Position numbers and translations under genes: made by a program. Below are positions 8,357 to 22,014 of a stretch of DNA of 27,558 nt, piece after piece. The stretch is taken from IMG/VR virus record IMGVR_UViG_3300025869_000074, positions 1 to 27,558 of that record; one strand, 5' to 3'. The notes under the pieces are model-generated. The model saw only the letters and a program-made list of their open reading frames with translations, made no database searches and had not been told where the DNA came from. Position 1 is the first letter of the stretch. The number at the start of each line of letters is the position of its first letter. Origin of the DNA: a virus.

Positions 8357-9418
8357 TTATCGTGCACACGCTGGTACACCTGTTGATGTTACAAATGGAT
8401 TTTCTGCAAATGCCATGTAAATATATTTTCTATTAAGACCATTTGAACCTGTATTTGCTCCTCTCTGTTTAAAACCATTGCTTAATATATCTATATCAAA
8501 AGCAGTGGCTGTATATTCAGCTGAACTGTCATTTGGAAACAATTCGCGAAAGGCTTCGTTATATGTATCTCGCTTATGATCATATACAATCCAATTTTCT
8601 CCTGAATTACTTGAATTTTTAAATAGTACAAAAGCTGGTCTAAAACCCGTATAGACGAATGTACCATTAGTACCTCCACTCCCAGCATACTGACCAAACT
8701 TGCTATAGCCTTTTTTCTCTGCAAAGGCATAACAAATCATGTTGTTTGAGCTTTGATTGGTTTGTTGTCCTGCACCTACAGAAAATACACTTGAAGTTGG
8801 AGCAGTATGATTCCATCTGTTTGTTCCACTATCTATTTGTCCATCAGTATTATTAAGTGCTAATGTATATCCAGCATCTGTCATATCTTTATGATAAACA
8901 GCCCAATCAACACTTGTAGTTCTATTTTTAACTATTAAAACCGTAGGAGCTTGTCCTAGTCCATGTCCTATTGTTCCCGCCGAACCAGTACCCGACCAAG
9001 TAATAATGCTAAACCCAGCTGTGGTATTTGCTTGTACTGTAGCATTTATAGAGCCAGTAGTGTTGCTTGAGGTCGTACCACCATTGGCTTTCCATTGCCA
9101 AGTAACAAATCTTTGTGCATTATTATTAACAGCAGTATCGCCACTACTTAAAGTAAAACCATTGCTATTAAAACTTGTCACATAGCTTGATATAGTGGAA
9201 TCAGCGTTAGTTGTAAATGTTGTTAAATATTTAGTAACTCCTCTGCTTGAGTCTGCTACATAAATTCCTCTACCTAAGTCTCTGTTTATTTGCCACCATA
9301 AATCAGGTTGCATATTACTATTGCCATCATTAGTGATGGAATGATTTACAGTACTATTACCTGTATATAAGGTAGTTTGAAAATGTGCTGATGGGTCGTC
9401 TATTGTTGTATAAGCCAT
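8357..9418 (-). CDS. Tail fibre/receptor-binding protein with DUF7483-like domain
   Basis: The 353-residue beta-rich product has an N-terminal part with LYTGNSTVNHSITNDGNSNM and DLWWQINRD (about 17-48), then WQWKANGG (107-114), then WSGTGSAGTIGHGLGQAP with LIVKNR (about 141-166) and repeated aromatic strands to the C-terminus. The GTGSAGTIGHGLGxAPxxxIVKNR motif is typical of a domain common in marine phage fibres (I associate it with DUF7483). In other phages it often follows a LamG domain in the same protein; here the LamG-type protein is a separate gene joined by TAATG. It is probably part of the adhesive tip. It contains two Cys (the motif PACAR lies at the very end). Confidence 0.6.
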   Translation of the reverse strand: MAYTTIDDPSAHFQTTLYTGNSTVNHSITNDGNSNMQPDLWWQINRDLGRGIYVADSSRGVTKYLTTFTTNADSTISSYVTSFNSNGFTLSSGDTAVNNNAQRFVTWQWKANGGTTSSNTTGSINATVQANTTAGFSIITWSGTGSAGTIGHGLGQAPTVLIVKNRTTSVDWAVYHKDMTDAGYTLALNNTDGQIDSGTNRWNHTAPTSSVFSVGAGQQTNQSSNNMICYAFAEKKGYSKFGQYAGSGGTNGTFVYTGFRPAFVLFKNSSNSGENWIVYDHKRDTYNEAFRELFPNDSSAEYTATAFDIDILSNGFKQRGANTGSNGLNRKYIYMAFAENPFVTSTGVPACAR

Positions 9419-10971: not shown

Positions 10972-13710
10972 TTAACCTTTTTTTTGGTCGTTAAGTTGTT
11001 GTTTGAGATCATCAACTTCTGTTTTAAGTTCTTTAATAGCTTCGATAAGAAGTCCTACCATATTACCGTATGCTACTGATTTAGTTTGCATTTCATCCTC
11101 AGCCGTAATTACAGCTTCGGGCAGTACCTTTTCAACTTCTTGTGCAATTACACCAGTCTGTCTAAGTGGTTCTTCTACATCTGTTCTGTCAAATGTAACT
11201 CCTCTTAATTGAGATACCTTTTCTAATGCACCATCAATTACAACAATGTTATCTTTTAGTCTTTCATCAGAGTAAGCTGTTACGTTACCAGTTGCTGTAA
11301 AGTGACCTGCATCGTCAAAGGTAAATCGTGTGGTTGTTCCATCTCGAATATACCAATTTCCAATTCCTGAATTAAGATCGGTATACATATGTGAACCATT
11401 ACAGAAGAACTCAACATCATCACTTGAACCAAAACGTAGTATGTCATTGTCAGCAAGATCAATTGCGTTTCTAACACTTAAAACTCCATTAACAGTTAAA
11501 GTTGTTCCTGTTAAAGTTGTAAAGGTATCCGTGGCATCACTTCTTAAGAAAGAACCTGAACCAAGACCATCCAATGTATCAGCATCTAAGCCACTACCTG
11601 GTCCGTCTACAGTTTTAATTGCCGTTAATATCTGAGCAGCTGTTTGATCTGCGGTAGCACCACTTTCAATACCGTCTAACTTAGAGCCATCGGATGCAAT
11701 ATCTCTTCCATCAACTGTACCTGATAATGTAATATTTCCGACAATATCAATACCACCTGATGTGGTTGCCAATTTTTCAGAACCATTATGGTATATTCTT
11801 ACTTCAGAATTTTCTGTGCAAAGTAAAGCCCATTCATCATTTAAATCATCATAAATACCAAAGTCATTACCATTGCCCATAAATGAGGTAAGAGTTTCTC
11901 CACTACTATTTGCAATGGTAATACCTCCCCAACTACTAGTACTTGATGTAATTGCTAATAAATCTGCTCGGTGTGAAGATTCTGCAAGTGAAACTTGTGA
12001 CCCTAGATTAATTGTAGTTCCTGAAAGAGTTGTAAAGGTATCTGATGCATCACTTCTTAGGAAAGAAGCTGAACTAATACCATCAAGTAAGTCTGCATCT
12101 AATCCTGAACCTGCCCCGTCTACTGTTTTAATTTTAGTAAGTACGTCTGCTGCTGTGTATGAAGAAGATGCTAATTTAGCATTTAAAGCTGTTTGTAAAC
12201 CGTCTACATTACTTATTACATGGTTATGCGAGTCGTCTGCTATTGTAACAGCAATACTTGTTGTACCTGAACCAGAAACATCTCCGCTCAGTGTGATTGT
12301 TTGGTTACCAGTTAAGTAACTTCCAGTTGCTTGTTTTCCATTTAACTGAGTTTGTATATTACTTGTTACACCGTCTACGTAATTTAATTCAGCCTTTGTC
12401 GCTGTAATTCCGAGATTCGTAATTGCATTTGCTTGTTGTGTTCCAGTTAAACCTTGAGATGCTGTATCAACTCGTAAGCGATTTCCTAATGCTGTTGAGG
12501 TTGTTGTAGAAAAGTTTGCGTCATCGCCAAGAGCTGCTGCTAATTCGTTTAATGTATCTAATGCAGCTGGAGCTGAATCTACTACTCCTGCAACTTGTGT
12601 ATCTACATATGCTTTAATTGATTGTTGTGTTGGTATTCTTGTTGCGGAGTTTGTTGCAAAGGAATCTTCGTCAATAAATGTAATTCCAGAAATTGTTCCG
12701 TCACTGAATGAGGTTGCTGTAACTGCACCTGTTACGTTTAAACCACTAGTGTTCATGGACATCTTGGTTGAGCCTGAGATATCAAAATCTATTCTCGTTG
12801 TAGCATCAATCGTGATTGGATAGCCTGAATCTATATGTAATCCTGTGGTTGCTCTGGTATCGTAAGGTAAAGAAATACTAGCGTAATCAGTTCCTGTAGT
12901 GTTAAATGTCCAGTTAATCTTAGCTGTTGTACCCGCTGCTCCACCTTTTAAATTTATTTCAGTATTATCTGAGTCTAGTAATAGGTTGCCTGAAATGTCT
13001 ATGCCTGTTGAGTTTGTGGCTATTTTTTGACTGTTGTTATAGTAAAGAGATACTGCACCATCATCATTAAATACAGCATATGTTTCCCCTGCATCTCCAC
13101 TTCTAAAATTAATTGATGCAGAACCATCTATATATAAATTTCCTGTGCCAACATCTCTAATATTACTATGACTGCCATTATGATAAATCTGTAAGTCTTG
13201 TGATGCACCAAACTGCAATCTATTAACTGTTTCACCTGAACTATCACCGAATTGGATAAGTTGATCATTTGTATCTAATGTTCCACCTAGCTGTGGACTT
13301 GTATCTTCTACAACATTGTTAATAGAAACAGCTTGTGCTCTAGCATCTGTGTAATAGAGGTTGGTTGAGCCCTCTGTAATAGTGTCCGTGTCTGCTGTAA
13401 GGGTTCCGCCATCTAGTTGGGGAAACACATTCATGATCCCGGCTGTTAGTCGGGCTTCTATTGTGTTGCTAGTTGAAAAAGCTCTGGCTGTAGTTCCCTC
13501 CTGTGCTCTTACAACAGTAAGGGTATTACCACTAATAGCGGTAACTTTAACAATCTCGTTGTTGGTATCGTCATCAATGGTGCAAAGAAAATATTCTCCC
13601 GCACTTAAACTTGGAAATACGTTTCCAGCCTGAACAGAGATTGAGGTCGCACTTGAACTAATATCAGCTGTAAGTACGGTATTTGCATTGTTCTTGAAAA
13701 CAACTGCCAC
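10972..13710 (-). CDS. Tail fibre with C-terminal S74 intramolecular chaperone
   Basis: This 912-residue fibre starts at GTG 13710, preceded by AGGAG with a six-base spacer. The N-terminal ~90 residues (VVFKNNANTVLTADISSSAT) are a conserved fibre base. The shaft holds repeated motifs such as YHNGS/YYNNS and GIDI-[SV]-GN, a TQQSIKAYVDTQV stretch (typical of phage fibres), and two copies of a module ending LRSDA[ST]DTFTTL[ST]GTT. Residues about 813-912 are a peptidase S74 chaperone: YSDERLKDNI, RTDVEEPLRQTGVIAQEVEK and a C-terminal coiled coil. The catalytic pair is predicted as Ser814 and Lys819 (S-x4-K, spacing as in endosialidase chaperones), with cleavage just before Ser814 after trimer folding. 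Confidence 0.85.
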   Translation of the reverse strand: MAVVFKNNANTVLTADISSSATSISVQAGNVFPSLSAGEYFLCTIDDDTNNEIVKVTAISGNTLTVVRAQEGTTARAFSTSNTIEARLTAGIMNVFPQLDGGTLTADTDTITEGSTNLYYTDARAQAVSINNVVEDTSPQLGGTLDTNDQLIQFGDSSGETVNRLQFGASQDLQIYHNGSHSNIRDVGTGNLYIDGSASINFRSGDAGETYAVFNDDGAVSLYYNNSQKIATNSTGIDISGNLLLDSDNTEINLKGGAAGTTAKINWTFNTTGTDYASISLPYDTRATTGLHIDSGYPITIDATTRIDFDISGSTKMSMNTSGLNVTGAVTATSFSDGTISGITFIDEDSFATNSATRIPTQQSIKAYVDTQVAGVVDSAPAALDTLNELAAALGDDANFSTTTSTALGNRLRVDTASQGLTGTQQANAITNLGITATKAELNYVDGVTSNIQTQLNGKQATGSYLTGNQTITLSGDVSGSGTTSIAVTIADDSHNHVISNVDGLQTALNAKLASSSYTAADVLTKIKTVDGAGSGLDADLLDGISSASFLRSDASDTFTTLSGTTINLGSQVSLAESSHRADLLAITSSTSSWGGITIANSSGETLTSFMGNGNDFGIYDDLNDEWALLCTENSEVRIYHNGSEKLATTSGGIDIVGNITLSGTVDGRDIASDGSKLDGIESGATADQTAAQILTAIKTVDGPGSGLDADTLDGLGSGSFLRSDATDTFTTLTGTTLTVNGVLSVRNAIDLADNDILRFGSSDDVEFFCNGSHMYTDLNSGIGNWYIRDGTTTRFTFDDAGHFTATGNVTAYSDERLKDNIVVIDGALEKVSQLRGVTFDRTDVEEPLRQTGVIAQEVEKVLPEAVITAEDEMQTKSVAYGNMVGLLIEAIKELKTEVDDLKQQLNDQKKG
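10975..11271 (-). other. S74 autocleaved chaperone domain of the fibre
   Basis: Codons 814-912 of the fibre encode SDERLKDNIVVIDGALEKVS and onward to the coiled coil KELKTEVDDLKQQLNDQ. The Ser814/Lys819 dyad and the GVIAQEVEKVLPEAV signature are diagnostic of the S74 family. Cleavage at the boundary would leave a mature fibre of about 813 residues. Confidence 0.8.
11501..11620 (-). repeat. Fibre module repeat, copy A
   Basis: This 120-base segment matches 12014-12133 at an offset of 513 bases, with clear DNA-level similarity such as gttgtaaaggtatc and catcacttctta. It encodes KTVDGPGSGLDADTLDGLGS then SFLRSDATDTFTTLTGTT. Confidence 0.75.
12014..12133 (-). repeat. Fibre module repeat, copy B
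   Basis: This is the second copy of the 120-base module, 171 codons upstream of copy A in the protein. It encodes KTVDGAGSGLDADLLDGISS then SFLRSDASDTFTTLSGTT. The two copies keep the frame and the spacing of the shaft motifs around them. Confidence 0.75.
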
Positions 13711-14163: not shown

Positions 14164-15207
14164 CTAATTTAATACACCAGTGTTAAGAGCCCTTGTGTTC
14201 AAAACTAACCCTCTAACATTTACTATTAACTGTACGTTAATAGACTCCGTTACAGAGGTTTGATCTGTAAGGCTCTTTGATGATAATAACACTTCTTGAT
14301 CTGATAGTGAAGCGGTATCAAGAGTTTGTTTATTAAGCGTTTTTGCGTGAGATTCCGCTAAGGATAGCTGGTCTGTAAAGACATTATTTATTAAATACAC
14401 AAGCGTCTCAGACATGGTTAAGGTCTCAGTTTTAGTAAGAGCATTTAAAAGAGATGCAGCCTCTGAAAGTGTTAAGGAGTCTGTTTCTGGCTTAGACAAT
14501 AACAACTCTGCGTTCTCTGTTATTGCAAACGAGTCTGTTAAACCTTTTGAAAGAGAGTAAATGTGTTCTTCAGAAAGGGTGGTAATATTTGTTTTATCAA
14601 GACCAACATCTGTTTGTAGCGGATCATCAACACTGGCAAGGTCGTCCAAAGTAAAACCATCAGTAAAGGACCTTAGATAAGAAACAACCCTAGAAAAAGA
14701 CTCAGACATAGATATTGTATCTGTTTTACTGAGCCCTGGCGTAAGAACCGGGGCTTCTGTAAGACTTACTGCATCAGATTTTTCTGCAGTAAAACTTTTT
14801 GCAAGAACTTCACTAACCACAACAGAATCTTCTTTATTCAAACCGGTAGCTAGGACAGCATTATCATCAGACATAGTTAATGTATCAGACGTTGGTATAC
14901 TAACTAATAAAACCGCAGCCTCACTCATAGTCATTGCGTCTGCTACAGACTTACTAAAAGACTGTACTAATTGTTCTGTAATAGTAAGAGTTTCTTGTTT
15001 TGTTGTTGTAAATGTAACAGCCAGAGCCTCAGATAAAGTAATAACTTCTGCATTTGGATGCCCAGAAAGAAAGTAAAGGTTTTTACTATCGGCATCTAAT
15101 AATACATTTACGGCTGATAAATCTACATACTGTAATGAACTTTGTAAGTTTGTAAATGTAATGGTTGACTTTAAGTCAACATAACTAACTGTTTTTTTGA
15201 ACGCCAT
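14164..15207 (-). CDS. Repeat protein with about fifteen 18-residue units
   Basis: After an N-terminal segment of about 53 residues, this 347-residue protein is almost wholly built from units of 18 residues, with consensus [DE]-x-[LVF]-[ST]-[LMI]-[ST]-[ED]-x(9-10)-K-x-[TSL]. Examples are DSFAITENAELLLSKPET, DSLTLSEAASLLNALTKT and ETLTMSETLVYLINNVFT. The regular period, alternating polar/hydrophobic strand and Asp/Glu turns suggest a beta-solenoid or stacked-sheet fibre. One unit (183-206) is longer, at 24 residues. It starts at a TAATG junction with the BppU-like gene, placing it at the start of the fibre module. It is probably a virion fibre or spacer; I know no characterised homologue. Confidence 0.7.
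   Translation of the reverse strand: MAFKKTVSYVDLKSTITFTNLQSSLQYVDLSAVNVLLDADSKNLYFLSGHPNAEVITLSEALAVTFTTTKQETLTITEQLVQSFSKSVADAMTMSEAAVLLVSIPTSDTLTMSDDNAVLATGLNKEDSVVVSEVLAKSFTAEKSDAVSLTEAPVLTPGLSKTDTISMSESFSRVVSYLRSFTDGFTLDDLASVDDPLQTDVGLDKTNITTLSEEHIYSLSKGLTDSFAITENAELLLSKPETDSLTLSEAASLLNALTKTETLTMSETLVYLINNVFTDQLSLAESHAKTLNKQTLDTASLSDQEVLLSSKSLTDQTSVTESINVQLIVNVRGLVLNTRALNTGVLN
14215..15048 (-). repeat. Array of about fifteen 54-base coding repeats
   Basis: Codons about 54-331 of the protein at 14164-15207 form degenerate tandem units, mostly of exactly 54 bases. Counting from residue 72 the units are 18, 18, 19, 18, 18, 20, 24, 18, 18, 18, 18, 18 and 18 residues long. DNA identity between units is low, but the (D/E)-x-(L/V/F)-(S/T)-(L/M/I)-(S/T)-E core is kept. 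Confidence 0.8.
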
Positions 15208-15581
15208 TAATCGAAGTCATCACGTACTTTAAACTTAATTAAATCTTGTACTGTTTGAATACCAGATCCAGAAGTTGTGTGTTCGATTTCACCTTCAAAA
15301 GTTCCTGCAGTTGTCCACGTTCCTGTAGGGAATGTTAATGTACAAGTGCCATTAGAAGCGCTTGTTATAGTAGCAGTTATTGTAGAAAGAACCGTTGTTG
15401 ACCCTACCTCACGAATGCGTAGTTTTACAGTTGCACCAGTTAAGTCGATTGGTGCCCAAGTAGTTTCGTCTTCTGCATCTAACGTAGCCCCAGACGCAGC
15501 AGTGTTGCTGTCTTTTAGGGTGAAAGTTAGTTCAGGAAGAGTGTCTCCTACTACTAATTTAATTGTGTCTGAATATGCCAT
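15207..15581 (-). CDS. BppU N-terminal-like beta-sandwich protein
   Basis: The 124-residue product reads as one immunoglobulin-like beta sandwich: IKLVVGDTLPELTFTLKDSN, then WAPIDLTGATVKLRIRE (about 46-62), SNGTCTLTFPTGTW and GTFEGEIEHT. The sequence [LV]-x-x-GD-[TS]-x-P-x-L-x-[FV]-x-[LF]-x-D followed by D-L-[TS]-G-A-T-V is that of the BppU N-terminal domain, which attaches receptor-binding proteins to the baseplate in lactococcal siphophages and is widespread in phage virions. Here it probably serves as an adaptor for the fibres. It is preceded by AGAGGT and overlaps the repeat-protein gene by one base. Confidence 0.7.
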   Translation of the reverse strand: MAYSDTIKLVVGDTLPELTFTLKDSNTAASGATLDAEDETTWAPIDLTGATVKLRIREVGSTTVLSTITATITSASNGTCTLTFPTGTWTTAGTFEGEIEHTTSGSGIQTVQDLIKFKVRDDFD

Positions 15582-15600: not shown

Positions 15601-18600
15601 CTAATTTTCTCTGTCAAACCCACCTACTTGATTGTAGCCTGGTATGAAGTCATCTATTTTTAATTTGCCTTGTGGAAAATCCCAAAGTTTTTCAAAAGCT
15701 GGTCCTAGTGGGCCAACAAAGAAAGGATCTCCATAAGTCTTGCCAGAAATTACAGGTAGCATAAGTGCGAAGGGTCCTAATGCCCCACTTCTATCAAGTA
15801 TTTCCATGGAGTATTCTCCATAGTCCATGTCTAAAGATTTTCTATAATTTCTTTCTGTAGAGTCTACACCAGGAAGGGCCCAAGCCAATCCACCTTTAAA
15901 CCTTTCTCGCAAATCAAATCCTAGCATAGTCAATGGAATTAAAGTAGCTGCAGCTAAAAGTAGTGGTGTTGCAGATTGAGACATAGACTCTCCTGCTTCT
16001 CTTCTTGCGTTCATCTCTCGACCTATACCACCAATAACAACTTTACCATAGGCATAGAAGAAGGCTTTTAGTTGCCAAACTAAAGCAAATCTAGGATCTG
16101 AAGCCCAAGCGGGTCTTTCAGAAGCATTGGGTCTTACAATAGACTCATCTACAAATCTATATAAAGCTACTTTTACTTTTTTACCAGCAGGGGTTTCAAG
16201 TGATTGTTCGCCAGCGTTCCAATCTGCAACGTCTTGTGGAGTTAAATTTAGTTCTTTTAAATACCTAATAGAACGTTGATCACCCTCTTGCGCCCTTCTG
16301 CCATGTTCAATAATAAAACTTTTACCCATACCAGCAGCAAAAACCCTAGTAAATTTAGTAAACCACTCTGTCCCTGTATACTTAAAAAAAGCTTCATTTG
16401 CACGTTTAGAGCCTTCTGTCATGTAGTCCATTTCACCCGCATTAACAAACATCATGTTAATTGCATCGGTGCTAACAGCCCCTATGTCGTAGGCCAGTCG
16501 CATGGCTTCTTCATCGCCTTTTAAAGCATTATAAAATATTTTTGCTGACTCCCTTAACTTGGGTAGTTCTTTAGACCTAAGTACGGGTCCTGCTACATCA
16601 GGGAAAGATGCAAACACTGTTAAAGCTAACAAGCCAAAAATGTTTGCTGTTAAAGCCCAACTGTTTGCAGTTTTTAATTTAGGATATTTTACGAATAACT
16701 CTGGGTTAATTTTACCCAAAGAAGCTAGCACCATGCTTGTAGCAATCTCTTTGTCTTTTTCAGTAGGAAGCTGATCTATCAACTCTTGTATACGTTTAGG
16801 CCCGCCCCTTTTGTTTAATTCATTTCGTTTAATTGTAGAAGTTACATAGTTACGCAAAGATTGTGCTGGGTTTACTAACGCCGAGTTGCCTTGTTCATCT
16901 ACAGCATTTCTTAATTCTGTAGTAGGAATGTTTCTAAATGCATCAGATCTACTTTTAGAAAGCCCCAATGCAAATTTTCCAGCATCGCTGTAAAGATCTA
17001 TATTAGTATTTTCAGGATCAGTTATAAGAAGGTTTACCATTTCTCTTGCAACTTTAGGGGTAATAGTAAACTCTCTTTCGCCGTCTTTAAACTTTTTACC
17101 TTTGTTAAACTCTACTAATAAAGCAACAACTTTATCTTGTATTACAGTGCTGTTTTCTATGTTTTGTAAAGCAATAGAACGCGGAAAATAATTGCTCATT
17201 TTTCTTATGCCAGCATACTTTTGAAAGTTTTCATCATCATACATTTTTGATAAAAACTCTCTAATTTCACGTGCTTTAGGGCTTAGTTTATCAGTGTTTA
17301 CTCGGCCATCTTCTGCTTCATACAAAATCTCCATAGCTTCATCAGTGACCTCACTTAATTCTTCAAAACCTAAAATACGCGCTATTTTGTTTGTGTACTC
17401 ATAAATTTTTTGTTGTTTAGCTTTACTCCAACCTAACTCAGTAGTTGTTTGTGACTGAGAGTATAAAATGTTTGCTATTTGTACACCTATAGGCCCAAGC
17501 CCCCTAAGCATGTTATCGGCTGTATAAGCTATTTCTTTTCCTGTACCTAATGCCTTTCTAACCCATCTTGCGGTTTTAGATTCAGATTCAGCTAGTTTTT
17601 TTGCTGTTCTTGCTAATCTCTCTACTGCAGGTTTTGACCCTGCGTTTTTAGATATTTTTGGTAGCTCATCAATAACAATACTTCTTATAATTGCGCTATT
17701 GAACATTCGGTTTGGCGTACGTTGTGGGTTACCTAATCCACGTTTTCTATCAGAAATAAGTTTTGTTATATACTCATCAAAAGCCGGATCTACTTTAAAT
17801 CTGTTTCTAAATGACTGAGACATCTTTTTAAAGAAAGCCCTTAGTTTTGCAGCTATTCTTTTGTAAATAGCTTCTCCACCATCAGTTGCTTTTGCAGTCT
17901 CATCAATTAAAAATTTAGCAATTTGGTTAGCACCATGTTCTTCAAATCTGGCTGCTATGTTTTTAGGTTCTGAACCTTCCATACCAGGAAAGTTTAGATC
18001 CTGTTCTAATTCAAACTTTTTAAAGTTTTTTACAAGTAATTTATAAGCATTACTATTTGGTTTTAGACTTAGAGAAAATTCTTGCTCTAAAATAGAGTGG
18101 CCTAACTCGTGCATAAGAGAAATGGCAGCTTTGCCTTCTGCTTCAGCGCTTGTGCCTTTCTTAGCATCAATGATTATAAAATCTGCGCCATCTGCTCCAG
18201 TTTGATAACTAATAATTCTACCACCAGCATTGCCTTGGCGTATAAACTCTTGCTCCTCCATAATTGCATTTAAGACTTGGTTGTTTCCTATATCTCTAAA
18301 AGTAACTACATCATCAGTAGTAAAAACATATATGTCACGCTTGTTTTTAAAATCATTTCTAACAATATTCATGACTGTAGGTAAAAATTTAGCGTCTTGG
18401 AAAGACTCAGTAACTTTTTTTGATATAAAAGATACAGGGTCTCTTCTAGTGGTCTCGGGTCGTAAAGGGTCTTTAGGTCTGTTTTTAAACTCGTCTGCAG
18501 CCCTTGCATCTGCCATATCTGTAGAGTCTAGAGCTACGGTTTTTGTTCTTGTATCTGTTTCTTCAAAAGTAGTAAAATCTTCTTTTTTTTCACTTTGTGG

Positions 18601-21600
18601 TAGTTTTAACTGGTCTATAAAAAAAAGGGTTTTAGAAATACCCATTTCTTTTTCGAGTCTTGCTTTTTCTGCTTGTAATTTTTTTAAACCCTCTGTGTCA
18701 TTTAAAGTTTTATAATCTTCTACAAGCTCTAAAACCCTGTTGTACATGCTTCCAAGCCCAATATTATTACCTTGAGTGCTTAAGTTTTCATTAATAATTC
18801 TTTTTACTTTGTCCTCACTTCTTTTAATCGCTTGTCGAGTCCGTTCTTGACTGGCGTTTTGATTTACAGGAACAGTAGCAGCCTCGCCAGTAGTACCACC
18901 AGCAGCACCACTTTCTCCACCTGTAGCTATAAATTCGTCTGGGTTTAAGGGTTGTGTAGCAGTTCCAGCTAATTGTTGCCTACTTAAATCCCTTTCTGCA
19001 GCAGTACCTTCTTCTTCTGTTTTTAATGCAACTCGTAAAGCAGCTAGTTCTTGTCCAATACTTTCGTATGGTTCATTTGGTTCAGCTTCTGGGTTGTCTT
19101 CAAGTTCTTGGATACGATTTTGTAACCTAGTACTTTCATCAGAAAACTCGCCACGTTCTGTAGCAAGTTCTGTCATAGAAAATTGTTGGTCCCCTCGGCC
19201 TTTTGTGTAAACAACTGCTTCTGCTTCTTCTTCTGCAGTTAATTCTGCTATTGGTTTACCATTCCAAAAGAACTCATACCCTAAAACTAAAGCTTCTGCT
19301 GCAGCTATTTGAAAACCTTGGTTAGCGGTTTCTAAGTCACCAGTAGCACTAACTTGAGCTTTGGTTCTGTTGTTATATCCACGACCGAAGTTAGTAAGTC
19401 TTGGCATATCTATAGGCTGAGACTTTTCTCCTTTCTCTTTATTTGCTGGAGTTAAAACTGTCCAAGGAGAACCTTTATATTTTCTAGCTGTAGTTTTTGC
19501 TTCTTTTACCCAATGCGCAACTTCTACATCCATATCTAACTCACCCGGTAAGGTGTACTTAAGCATGCCGTGACGGGGAGTGCCATCTTCATCTTGTCCA
19601 ATTTCAATAATATCAAAGTAAAATGCTTGGCCCGCCTCTTTAGATCTTTTTGCAAAGTTTTTAAGAAGAGAGCCTGAATAAATATTATCTTTTATATTAG
19701 CAACAAGTTCAGGTTGAAAACCAAATGCATAAACCAAAGCATTTTCTTTATCTGCTTCATAAGCTTCTGCGGCTGTTCTACCTTGCCCCCCACTATCTGG
19801 TTTTGTGCTCATGGGTCTAGTTGGATCATTCCCTTTCCATCCCTCTTCTTCTTGTCTTTGTTCTGTGGTTTGAGACTCGTGTTTAGAAGATTTAATTGGG
19901 TCAGCTTTAGAACCCGGCTCATCTGTTACTAACTCAGATTCAAAAGAAGTTGCTCCCATTGCACCAGCTGCAAAAGATGCCATACGATCATCAAGAGCTG
20001 CTAAATCTAAGTCATCAACCTGTTCTTCTTGGGAAGCTATACCTTCTAATTCTTGTTGAAGTTGGCCTTCTGGGGCCGCTTTTTGAGCACCGCTTGCTCC
20101 CTGTCTAATCAGTTCAATAGCTTGGAAGTCTTGTCTTAAAGTCTGTTGTTTTTGTGGGGATAGGTTTTCTATTCCTTTTGTGGGTAAACCTTTTTTTACA
20201 TTTTCCCTATCTTTAATTTGTATCTCTTTTAAAAGCCCTTGATACCTAGCAATTAATGCTTCATCTTCTTTAGTAGTTTGCTGGTCCTCGAGATCCATAC
20301 TACGTCTTTTTTCTATTGGAGTAATAGCCTTGTTTCGTTCTTCAACGTGTTGTTCTACAGGCTTGGTGACTATGTTTGCGTCTGGCCCAAATAATTTTAT
20401 AGCTGCTTCTTTTGCTGATTCTTCGTCTTGTATGTTTGTATTTTGATACCAAACGGGTACGTTACTATCATTCAATACTTCTACAACTAAATCTCCAGCT
20501 TTGTCTCTACTATGCGAATATCCAAGTATTTCAGCCAAAGAATTATCTAAAGCCGCTGTGTCATATAAATTTTCGTTTTCAGTTTGTTCTTGAAATCTTT
20601 GTCTAAGTTCTGGGTTAGTAGTAAGCAACATCCCCATAGACTTACTAGCTTCTTTATCTCCAGCTATGTGCTGTGTAACACCCGCATCTTGTAATTTTTG
20701 TTGTAGTTCTGGTTTATTTTTTAACAACTCAGCAAGCTGATTAAAGCTATCAGGATCTATGTACACCGCTTCTTTGTTGTTAGCGGGGTCTATCATGGCT
20801 TCTATTTGTGCTTCCAACCAAGCTTCTGGTTCTGTGTACACGGTGCCCGGTTCATTTTCGCCGTAGCGTTCTTTATAAAAAGCTTCAAGATCGTTTTTTA
20901 TTTTAACGTCTTTTATTTGCCCCCTTGCTTTGTTAATAACTCCAGTTGCTGTTCCAGTTGCAGCGCCAATACCAGCACCACCAAAAAACCCCATAAAAGC
21001 CGCTTGGGCACGGTCCATATTAGCCATAGCTGCAGTGTAGTCGTCATCAATTGCAAATTTTTGTCGTACTGTTATTTCTTCTTGCAATAATTCAGTAAGA
21101 CCTTCTACGCTTGAAGATCTAGCAGCACCAGCTCCTAAAGATTGTAAAATAGTTTTATGGGCTTTCCCGCTTCCTTTTTTTATTTGATTTACAAAGCCTT
21201 TAAATACCAAAGCTTCACCACCTACACCCACCGCAGTAAAAGGCACACCTAGTCCTAAAGACTGAAAAGCTTGAACTGGGTCAGTCATATCTTGTTCTGC
21301 AAAAGTACCAAAAGCTATACCAGCACCCTGTGGGTATTCTTGGCTTACAGCACCTGCAACTGCTCCACGCTTTGCAAATTTTGCTCTTCTTGCTTGATCA
21401 ATGGGCTTGCCCATTTGTTTTCTATAAGTTTGATAAGCCCCTTCTAAAATATCATTTTCATCTTTGTCTAAGGTCAAACCTTTCATTCGCTTTTTAGCAA
21501 TTCTATTTATTTCTTTTTTAGCTACATTACCCGTTAAACTTTTTGCAAACCCTACAAAAGTACCAGCAGTAGCGCCTCCAGGACCCGCAAGTATTGCGCC

Positions 21601-22014
21601 AGCGCCTGCACCCGCTAAAGCAGAAAGAAAACTATTAATAGCAGAAGGGCCAAATTGTCCAGTTGCACTTGAGACTTGATTTATAAAACCCCCAAAGGTG
21701 GGTTCATCTAGAAATTGATGAAAGTCTTCAACGGGCTCCATAATAGCTCCCGCATAGCTTTCATTTCTTTCAGCTTGCGCAATATTATCACGCATGGCTT
21801 TTTCGTCACCTCTAATTGAATTAGCTAAAGCTGAAAAATAATTTAAGTTGGCGGCTACATTATAGCCACCAGATTCAAAACCTTTTTTAAAGATCTTTAT
21901 TGGGTCTTTTAATTCTCCTCGAGCAGAAGATTGTTCAGTGTAAGCACCGGGTACTTCATAAGTGGGTTTTTGACCAACTTTTTCTGTGTAAGCCTGTGGT
22001 ACTTTTTTAGCCAC
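15601..22014 (-). CDS. Giant internal virion / ejection protein (gp16-like) with metallopeptidase motif
   Basis: At 2137 residues this is far larger than T7 gp16 (about 1300). It starts at GTG 22014, three bases after the stop of the gp15-like gene begins, in the gp16 position of a T7-type order. Residues 124-158, 215-235 and 335-360 are Gly/Ala-rich hydrophobic segments. Coiled-coil regions occur near 1090-1170. HELGH at 1302-1306, followed by RFEEHGANQIAKF (Glu1358/1359), fits a gluzincin-type Zn peptidase. The C-terminal part (about 1785-2137) has membrane-like segments (LTANIFGLLALTVFASF and ATPLLLAAATLIPLTMLGF) and the motif RFVDESIVRPNASERP, known to me from large internal proteins of marine podoviruses. 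No lytic transglycosylase signature was found. It is expected to be ejected and to span the envelope. Confidence 0.75.
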   Translation of the reverse strand: MAKKVPQAYTEKVGQKPTYEVPGAYTEQSSARGELKDPIKIFKKGFESGGYNVAANLNYFSALANSIRGDEKAMRDNIAQAERNESYAGAIMEPVEDFHQFLDEPTFGGFINQVSSATGQFGPSAINSFLSALAGAGAGAILAGPGGATAGTFVGFAKSLTGNVAKKEINRIAKKRMKGLTLDKDENDILEGAYQTYRKQMGKPIDQARRAKFAKRGAVAGAVSQEYPQGAGIAFGTFAEQDMTDPVQAFQSLGLGVPFTAVGVGGEALVFKGFVNQIKKGSGKAHKTILQSLGAGAARSSSVEGLTELLQEEITVRQKFAIDDDYTAAMANMDRAQAAFMGFFGGAGIGAATGTATGVINKARGQIKDVKIKNDLEAFYKERYGENEPGTVYTEPEAWLEAQIEAMIDPANNKEAVYIDPDSFNQLAELLKNKPELQQKLQDAGVTQHIAGDKEASKSMGMLLTTNPELRQRFQEQTENENLYDTAALDNSLAEILGYSHSRDKAGDLVVEVLNDSNVPVWYQNTNIQDEESAKEAAIKLFGPDANIVTKPVEQHVEERNKAITPIEKRRSMDLEDQQTTKEDEALIARYQGLLKEIQIKDRENVKKGLPTKGIENLSPQKQQTLRQDFQAIELIRQGASGAQKAAPEGQLQQELEGIASQEEQVDDLDLAALDDRMASFAAGAMGATSFESELVTDEPGSKADPIKSSKHESQTTEQRQEEEGWKGNDPTRPMSTKPDSGGQGRTAAEAYEADKENALVYAFGFQPELVANIKDNIYSGSLLKNFAKRSKEAGQAFYFDIIEIGQDEDGTPRHGMLKYTLPGELDMDVEVAHWVKEAKTTARKYKGSPWTVLTPANKEKGEKSQPIDMPRLTNFGRGYNNRTKAQVSATGDLETANQGFQIAAAEALVLGYEFFWNGKPIAELTAEEEAEAVVYTKGRGDQQFSMTELATERGEFSDESTRLQNRIQELEDNPEAEPNEPYESIGQELAALRVALKTEEEGTAAERDLSRQQLAGTATQPLNPDEFIATGGESGAAGGTTGEAATVPVNQNASQERTRQAIKRSEDKVKRIINENLSTQGNNIGLGSMYNRVLELVEDYKTLNDTEGLKKLQAEKARLEKEMGISKTLFFIDQLKLPQSEKKEDFTTFEETDTRTKTVALDSTDMADARAADEFKNRPKDPLRPETTRRDPVSFISKKVTESFQDAKFLPTVMNIVRNDFKNKRDIYVFTTDDVVTFRDIGNNQVLNAIMEEQEFIRQGNAGGRIISYQTGADGADFIIIDAKKGTSAEAEGKAAISLMHELGHSILEQEFSLSLKPNSNAYKLLVKNFKKFELEQDLNFPGMEGSEPKNIAARFEEHGANQIAKFLIDETAKATDGGEAIYKRIAAKLRAFFKKMSQSFRNRFKVDPAFDEYITKLISDRKRGLGNPQRTPNRMFNSAIIRSIVIDELPKISKNAGSKPAVERLARTAKKLAESESKTARWVRKALGTGKEIAYTADNMLRGLGPIGVQIANILYSQSQTTTELGWSKAKQQKIYEYTNKIARILGFEELSEVTDEAMEILYEAEDGRVNTDKLSPKAREIREFLSKMYDDENFQKYAGIRKMSNYFPRSIALQNIENSTVIQDKVVALLVEFNKGKKFKDGEREFTITPKVAREMVNLLITDPENTNIDLYSDAGKFALGLSKSRSDAFRNIPTTELRNAVDEQGNSALVNPAQSLRNYVTSTIKRNELNKRGGPKRIQELIDQLPTEKDKEIATSMVLASLGKINPELFVKYPKLKTANSWALTANIFGLLALTVFASFPDVAGPVLRSKELPKLRESAKIFYNALKGDEEAMRLAYDIGAVSTDAINMMFVNAGEMDYMTEGSKRANEAFFKYTGTEWFTKFTRVFAAGMGKSFIIEHGRRAQEGDQRSIRYLKELNLTPQDVADWNAGEQSLETPAGKKVKVALYRFVDESIVRPNASERPAWASDPRFALVWQLKAFFYAYGKVVIGGIGREMNARREAGESMSQSATPLLLAAATLIPLTMLGFDLRERFKGGLAWALPGVDSTERNYRKSLDMDYGEYSMEILDRSGALGPFALMLPVISGKTYGDPFFVGPLGPAFEKLWDFPQGKLKIDDFIPGYNQVGGFDREN

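Follow-up and report, generated by a model that had tools for sequence, protein, structure and literature searches.

A protein of 18-residue repeats as a candidate tail arm in a short-tailed phage

The repeat gene and its neighbors

The window, meaning the whole stretch of DNA analysed here, is a 27,558-base virus record with the gene content of a short-tailed phage. It encodes SU10-adaptor-like proteins and a phrog_511 protein common to Stx and Vibrio phages, and the phage is probably marine, judging from its relatives and their metagenome sources. The genes run from a 2137-aa structural protein through g09, g10, g11 and g12 to LamG/SPRY and DUF7483 proteins. The four central genes are:

15207..15581, minus strand: g09, small BppU_N-like protein, probable tail adaptor (PF10651, E=1.1e-4, 22.3 bits)
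14164..15207, minus strand: g10, repeat protein of 347 aa
13728..14153, minus strand: g11, 141 aa, phrog_5417 family, follows the repeat gene in the loci checked
10972..13710, minus strand: g12, fibre of 912 aa with a C-terminal Peptidase_S74 intramolecular chaperone (PF13884, E=6.3e-16) and matches to many tail-fibre PHROGs

The g10 open reading frame is real and on the minus strand, which the earlier note left unstated, and its start overlaps the stop of the upstream g09 (TAATG). The g09 product scores below the curated BppU_N cut-off (22.3 versus 23.1 bits) and is therefore BppU_N-like rather than a member. The g11 protein is a full-length match to phrog_5417 (E=4.7e-27, residues 2-140 on profile positions 9-156 of 156). 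The earlier note had placed g10 between a BppU-like adaptor and the fibre genes; it does adjoin the BppU-like gene, but g11, which was overlooked, intervenes before the fibre gene.

Elsewhere in the window, the 2137-aa protein (15601-22014) matches a virion structural PHROG at its C-terminus only and has no Pfam domain. At 8357-9418 lies a full-length DUF7483 protein (E=1e-106), which is followed by a 205-aa protein weakly like tail-fibre-assembly families.

An array of 18-residue units

The g10 protein is divided as follows, all on the minus strand:

15049..15207: residues 1-53, the N-terminal region, which is conserved across the podophage family and lies outside the β alternation
14212..15048: array of 18-residue units, residues 54-332, with continuous large/small alternation and one phase flip near residue 113
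14590..14721: variant double unit within the array, residues 163-206 (DTISMSESFSRVVSYLRSF..LDDLASVDDPLQTD..DKT), once per protein
14167..14211: residues 333-347, the C-terminal end, which contains VLNTRALNTGVLN; the wider family has three C-terminal types, of which this is one

There are about 15-16 units with the core D-x-h-[ST]-h-[ST]-[DE], matched at residues 54, 72, 90, 108, 127, 145, 163, (183/189), 207, 225, 243, 261, 279, 297 and 315. Twelve of the 15 spacings are exactly 18, and the exceptions are one of 19 and the 44-residue variant stretch 163-206, which contains an LDDLASVDD...DKTN segment. Self-identity at lag 18 is 0.202, compared with 0.090±0.018 in shuffled sequences; it is the highest of lags 2-79 and exceeds the highest value found over all lags in 2000 shuffles (0.188). 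The count of about fifteen units, nearly all of 18 residues, given in the earlier note is thus borne out. The core that it proposed, [DE]-x-[LVF]-[ST]-[LMI]-[ST]-E, is too narrow in its strict form, which fits four units only (0.009 expected; at most one in 5000 shuffles), whereas the looser core fits them all.

The unit typically has D at position 1, hydrophobic residues at 3 and 5, E or D at 7, L or P at 9, L at 11, F at 13 and K at either 15 or 17. Side chains at even positions are mostly small (S/T/A/G) and those at odd positions are large, a parity that the earlier note did not mention. Across the family, about half of the units have the lysine described near the end, at position 15 (29%) or 17 (36%), and these two positions covary strongly. 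Tandem Repeats Finder returned no array in the window DNA matching the g10 repeat, which argues that the repeat is old and has been kept at the protein level.

Relatives in other podophages

With g09 as bait, the best 80 of 281 confirmed IMG/VR stretches were taken, and in these loci a repeat protein of 285-580 aa directly follows g09 wherever the contig continues. A second scan, using the family alignment, gave 80 loci, 78 of them new. The mapped loci keep the order g09-g10-g11-g12 as far as their contigs reach, with either of two very dissimilar gene sets upstream of it, and the cassette is therefore common to different phage lineages. At L073 (6375-6662), and also at L076 and L077, a gene for a very basic 95-aa protein lies between g09 and the place of the repeat gene; when the L073 locus was read out, the array gene came directly after this inserted gene.

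The variant unit, LDDxASxxD...KxN in the family alignment, occurs once per protein and holds most of the invariant columns. Invariant in 22 sequences are R179, F181, L187, D188, D189, S192, D195 and K205, together with the adjoining N207. Other invariant residues are found at the N- and C-terminal regions of the repeat protein. The variant unit might bind a metal, introduce a kink or serve as a contact for a partner. In one 1065-aa protein (L002) it recurs several times.

Relatives differ in length by whole units, with insertions and deletions that include 18, 54 and 72 residues, although many lengths are not multiples of 18. A 119-residue domain is also cleanly present or absent between units. 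By a simple motif, 24 of 64 podophage relatives have a domain of about 115 residues with H...YYCTNHSGMGG between two units. Its carriers include L007, L010, L016, L024, L034 and L286, with two copies in tandem in L034. This domain resembles a blue-copper (cupredoxin) site, and plastocyanin was the second PDB match, although a weak one (E=0.1).

Alternation and covariation indicate β structure

Over residues 54-332 of g10, the autocorrelation of side-chain volume is -0.35, +0.28, -0.33 and +0.30 at lags 1-4, and it persists at lag 18 (+0.35) and lag 36 (+0.28). The volume spectrum peaks at 179-180 degrees, with 31.2 at 179 and 21.9 at 180, where the maximum in 1000 shuffles was 18.4; the helical band at 95-105 degrees is empty. 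The single phase flip, near residue 113, falls inside the 19-residue unit. Period-two alternation is absent from the N-terminal 53 residues of g10, from g09, from g11 and from the fibre. Taken as lag 2 above 0.1 with lag 1 below 0, it is found in 98% of podophage relatives and 73% of the proteins encoded upstream of g11, but in only 3% of control ORFs.

Mean-field direct coupling analysis (DCA) of 587 three-unit windows gave a mean z of 2.7 at i,i+2, which may partly stem from two-residue slips between units, compared with 0.55 at i+3 and 0.91 at i+4. Even offsets mostly exceed odd ones out to about 24 residues, and the i,i+18 couplings partly reflect unit duplication. Taken together, the i,i+2 covariation and the strict alternation over about 280 residues indicate that the array would form continuous β structure, and not helix or disorder. 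Alternation combined with even-offset couplings points to extended strands whose in/out parity is kept across the 18-residue unit, as would be expected of a β-solenoid or an intertwined β-helix. In/out alternation that is kept across repeats is the general mark of β-solenoids and trimeric β-helices, and the g10 array has it.

AlphaFold2 did not add to this picture. The whole g10 monomer, modeled with 22 sequences, had a pLDDT of 33 with no strands and no solenoid, and the C-terminal 141 residues, modeled with 35 register-matched arrays, reached a pLDDT of 54 with partial helices and no strands. One solenoid turn or strand-pair per unit had been suggested earlier, and a predicted stacked solenoid was named as what would support it. 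A β structure of period 18 is upheld by covariation and residue alternation, but that predicted solenoid was not obtained, and these low-confidence monomers are too poor to count firmly either way.

The very low AlphaFold confidence throughout would also suit a flexible, largely unfolded tether rich in S/T/D/E, in which the repeat stems from unit duplication and composition serves only for solubility. The S/T/D/E-rich composition, with a net charge of -24, and those indels that are whole units agree with a tether. We nevertheless consider it unlikely: a two-residue alternation this strict, common to nearly all relatives, argues against an unfolded chain, as do a positive FoldIndex (+0.20) and the near-exclusively hydrophobic position 5 of the unit (in part a product of the motif by which the units were selected).

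A possible tail shaft or arm

The preferred reading, to which we give somewhat better than even odds, is that g10 forms an elongated, β-structured shaft or arm that links adaptor and fibre in the tail of a short-tailed marine phage. The repeat, its β-type alternation, the conserved cassette and the change of length by whole units are shown directly; the virion location of g10 we infer from gene order, and we also infer its docking partners, oligomeric state and role as a spacer. Read most simply, the gene order g09-g10-g11-g12 would correspond to an adaptor, an extendable shaft, a connector and a fibre, and the unit-size differences in length and the removable 119-residue domain are as expected of a modular arm. 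The N-terminal region of about 50 residues would probably attach to the tail, with the BppU-like g09 as a possible intermediary. The array would follow as a continuous β assembly, either a solenoid or an intertwined homotrimeric β-helix; one face would present small S/T/A/G residues and the other hydrophobic and D/E/K residues. Its C-terminal LNTxALNTxxLN end would probably meet g11, which would in turn carry the S74-tipped fibre g12. The number of units would set the length of the arm, changeable by whole units, and extra domains could slot between them. The earlier proposal of a tail or virion spacer beside a BppU-like adaptor fits the conserved gene order.

That no characterised protein has this exact repeat, as the earlier note also said, holds against Pfam, NCBIfam and PDB sequences, in which the repeat has no match; PDB searches with g10, with a profile of 35 arrays and with a regular relative returned nothing. 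Hits of g10 to Ad_Cy_reg, Spexin, flg_new and lpxD among the Pfam and NCBIfam models were below the cut-off and were rejected as chance. A literature search, confined to open-licence papers, found no description of the repeat.

Several known systems share some of these features. Triple β-spiral shafts are built from repeats of about 15-21 residues with alternating hydrophobics in extended strands. The array resembles those of adenovirus fibre and reovirus sigma-1 in repeat length and alternating hydrophobics, but lacks their conserved Gly/Pro turn residue (at best 25% G at position 14 and 17% P at position 9). It also resembles the even-length β-solenoids (left-handed β-helix, ice-nucleation and antifreeze proteins) in having 18 residues per repeat, preserved parity and an S/T-rich face. 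The hexapeptide of the left-handed β-helix, [LIV]-[GAED]-x2-[STAV]-x, three of which make an 18-residue coil, is only partly visible: position 5 is hydrophobic and 11 mostly L/I/F, but 17 is K/L/F; lag 6 ranks third among the identity lags. AlphaFold usually finds monomeric β-solenoids, however, and predicted none for g10. In TP901-1, the N-terminal domain of BppU attaches the adhesion apparatus to the tail. The window is like this Dit-attached adaptor system in having a BppU_N-like domain before g10 and receptor-binding parts after it; it differs in that a gene of its own (124 aa) encodes this domain, in a phage with a short tail, and that g10 has no BppU match.

The array might instead be adhesive itself, a series of repeated β coils binding sugars or surfaces in which unit number and inserted domains tune adhesion. 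Outward S/T ladders in solenoids can bind surfaces, as in antifreeze and adhesin solenoids, and unit number does vary among relatives, which tolerate inserted domains such as the cupredoxin-like one. The S74-tipped fibre and the LamG/SPRY and DUF7483 proteins of the window are nevertheless better candidates for receptor binding, and conservation is among the highest at the two termini of the protein, as expected of a connector, so we regard an adhesive array as improbable, slightly more so than a tether. Rods with a five-turn helical repeat per unit are very doubtful: 18 residues do equal five helical turns, some units (SESFSRVVSYLRSF) look helical and helices are present, at a pLDDT of about 60, in the second AlphaFold model, but the spectrum near 100 degrees (1.7) is under the shuffle mean (2.9) and the couplings peak at i+2, not at i+3 or i+4.

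With g10 read as a tail arm, repeat-built structures of this kind are already known; what is new is this unit, which is in no family library or PDB entry searched. In these terms g10 is an undescribed repeat for a known job, working like a fibre shaft or spacer, and its pure two-residue alternation makes a sharp structural prediction.

A wider family found through g11

Homologues of g11 occur in four of 50,697 phage records, compared with more than 580 IMG/VR stretches. Used as bait, g11 yielded at least 123 distinct proteins encoded just upstream of its homologues. A unit HMM built from the podophage relatives of the window only (threshold E<1e-3) matches 119 of the 123, among the matches listed, and none of 540 other ORFs in the same loci. 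The near-palindromic character of the unit in residue property lets 108 of the 123 reach E<1e-3 in reverse too, so the HMM responds to composition and alternation in addition to sequence; 116 of the 123 score better forward than reversed, by a mean of 34 bits. Of the 116 loci with room for a BppU-like gene next to the array gene, 56 have one directly adjoining it. The three C-terminal types are xLNTxALNTxxLN, SQGYCDxTYFAEDYVGxSRTF and GGHYFNQTPINPG. A search of genome contigs with g11 found three MAG contigs, two of them with an array upstream; the same search with the repeat alignment gave no match.

Some T4-like contigs, such as L197, L248 and L225, have the array fused to the C-terminal side of a gp7-like baseplate-wedge domain (PF23786, E=2.6e-13 to 2e-10), which forms the N-terminus of the protein, again with a neighboring g11. 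The window g10 has no gp7 domain (no PF23786 match), and T4 gp7 itself is not known to us to have an array of this sort. None was present in the stretches examined of the gp7-like proteins of cyanophages S-RIM2, S-CAM1, Sf-CH1a and P-SSM4. In the T4-like Synechococcus phage BUCT-ZZ01, the array lies in the gene after gp6 (HMM E=4e-22; reversed 2e-9), with the g11 homologue elsewhere in the genome, away from the array gene. No further relatives were found when the repeat region of BUCT-ZZ01 or the L002 protein served as query. The repeat itself was not found in isolate genomes by tblastn, a weak negative since tblastn masks low-complexity sequence.

Hundreds of contigs from uncultured phages carry g11, and in nearly all that were checked an array of this kind comes directly before it, which suggests that the repeat protein is probably a widespread but unnamed tail arm. 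A broader and more tentative possibility, which we hold to be less probable than not, is that this unit, an unnamed β-repeat with no solved counterpart, provides the extendable arm of the adhesion apparatus in a sizeable fraction of uncultured tailed phages, across several tail types; g11 would almost always accompany it as a connector, the number of units would determine arm length, and additional domains could be slotted in. The repeat would help in annotating the adhesion modules of uncultured phages.

Three further phages, Aeromonas phage phiA008, phage Simon and EBPR siphovirus 1, were considered as carriers and rejected, having no alternation. With the unit HMM, phiA008 and Simon score hardly above their own reversed sequences and EBPR gp36 does not match. 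All three have the g11 partner next door, and gene position alone is claimed for them.

The g11 protein, and not the g10 repeat protein, weakly resembles residues 402-508 of the HFTV1 baseplate hub gp44 (PDB 9h4p, E=0.003). This hub anchors the tail fibres, which attach at its N-terminus and not at the g11-like domain (PMC12494034).
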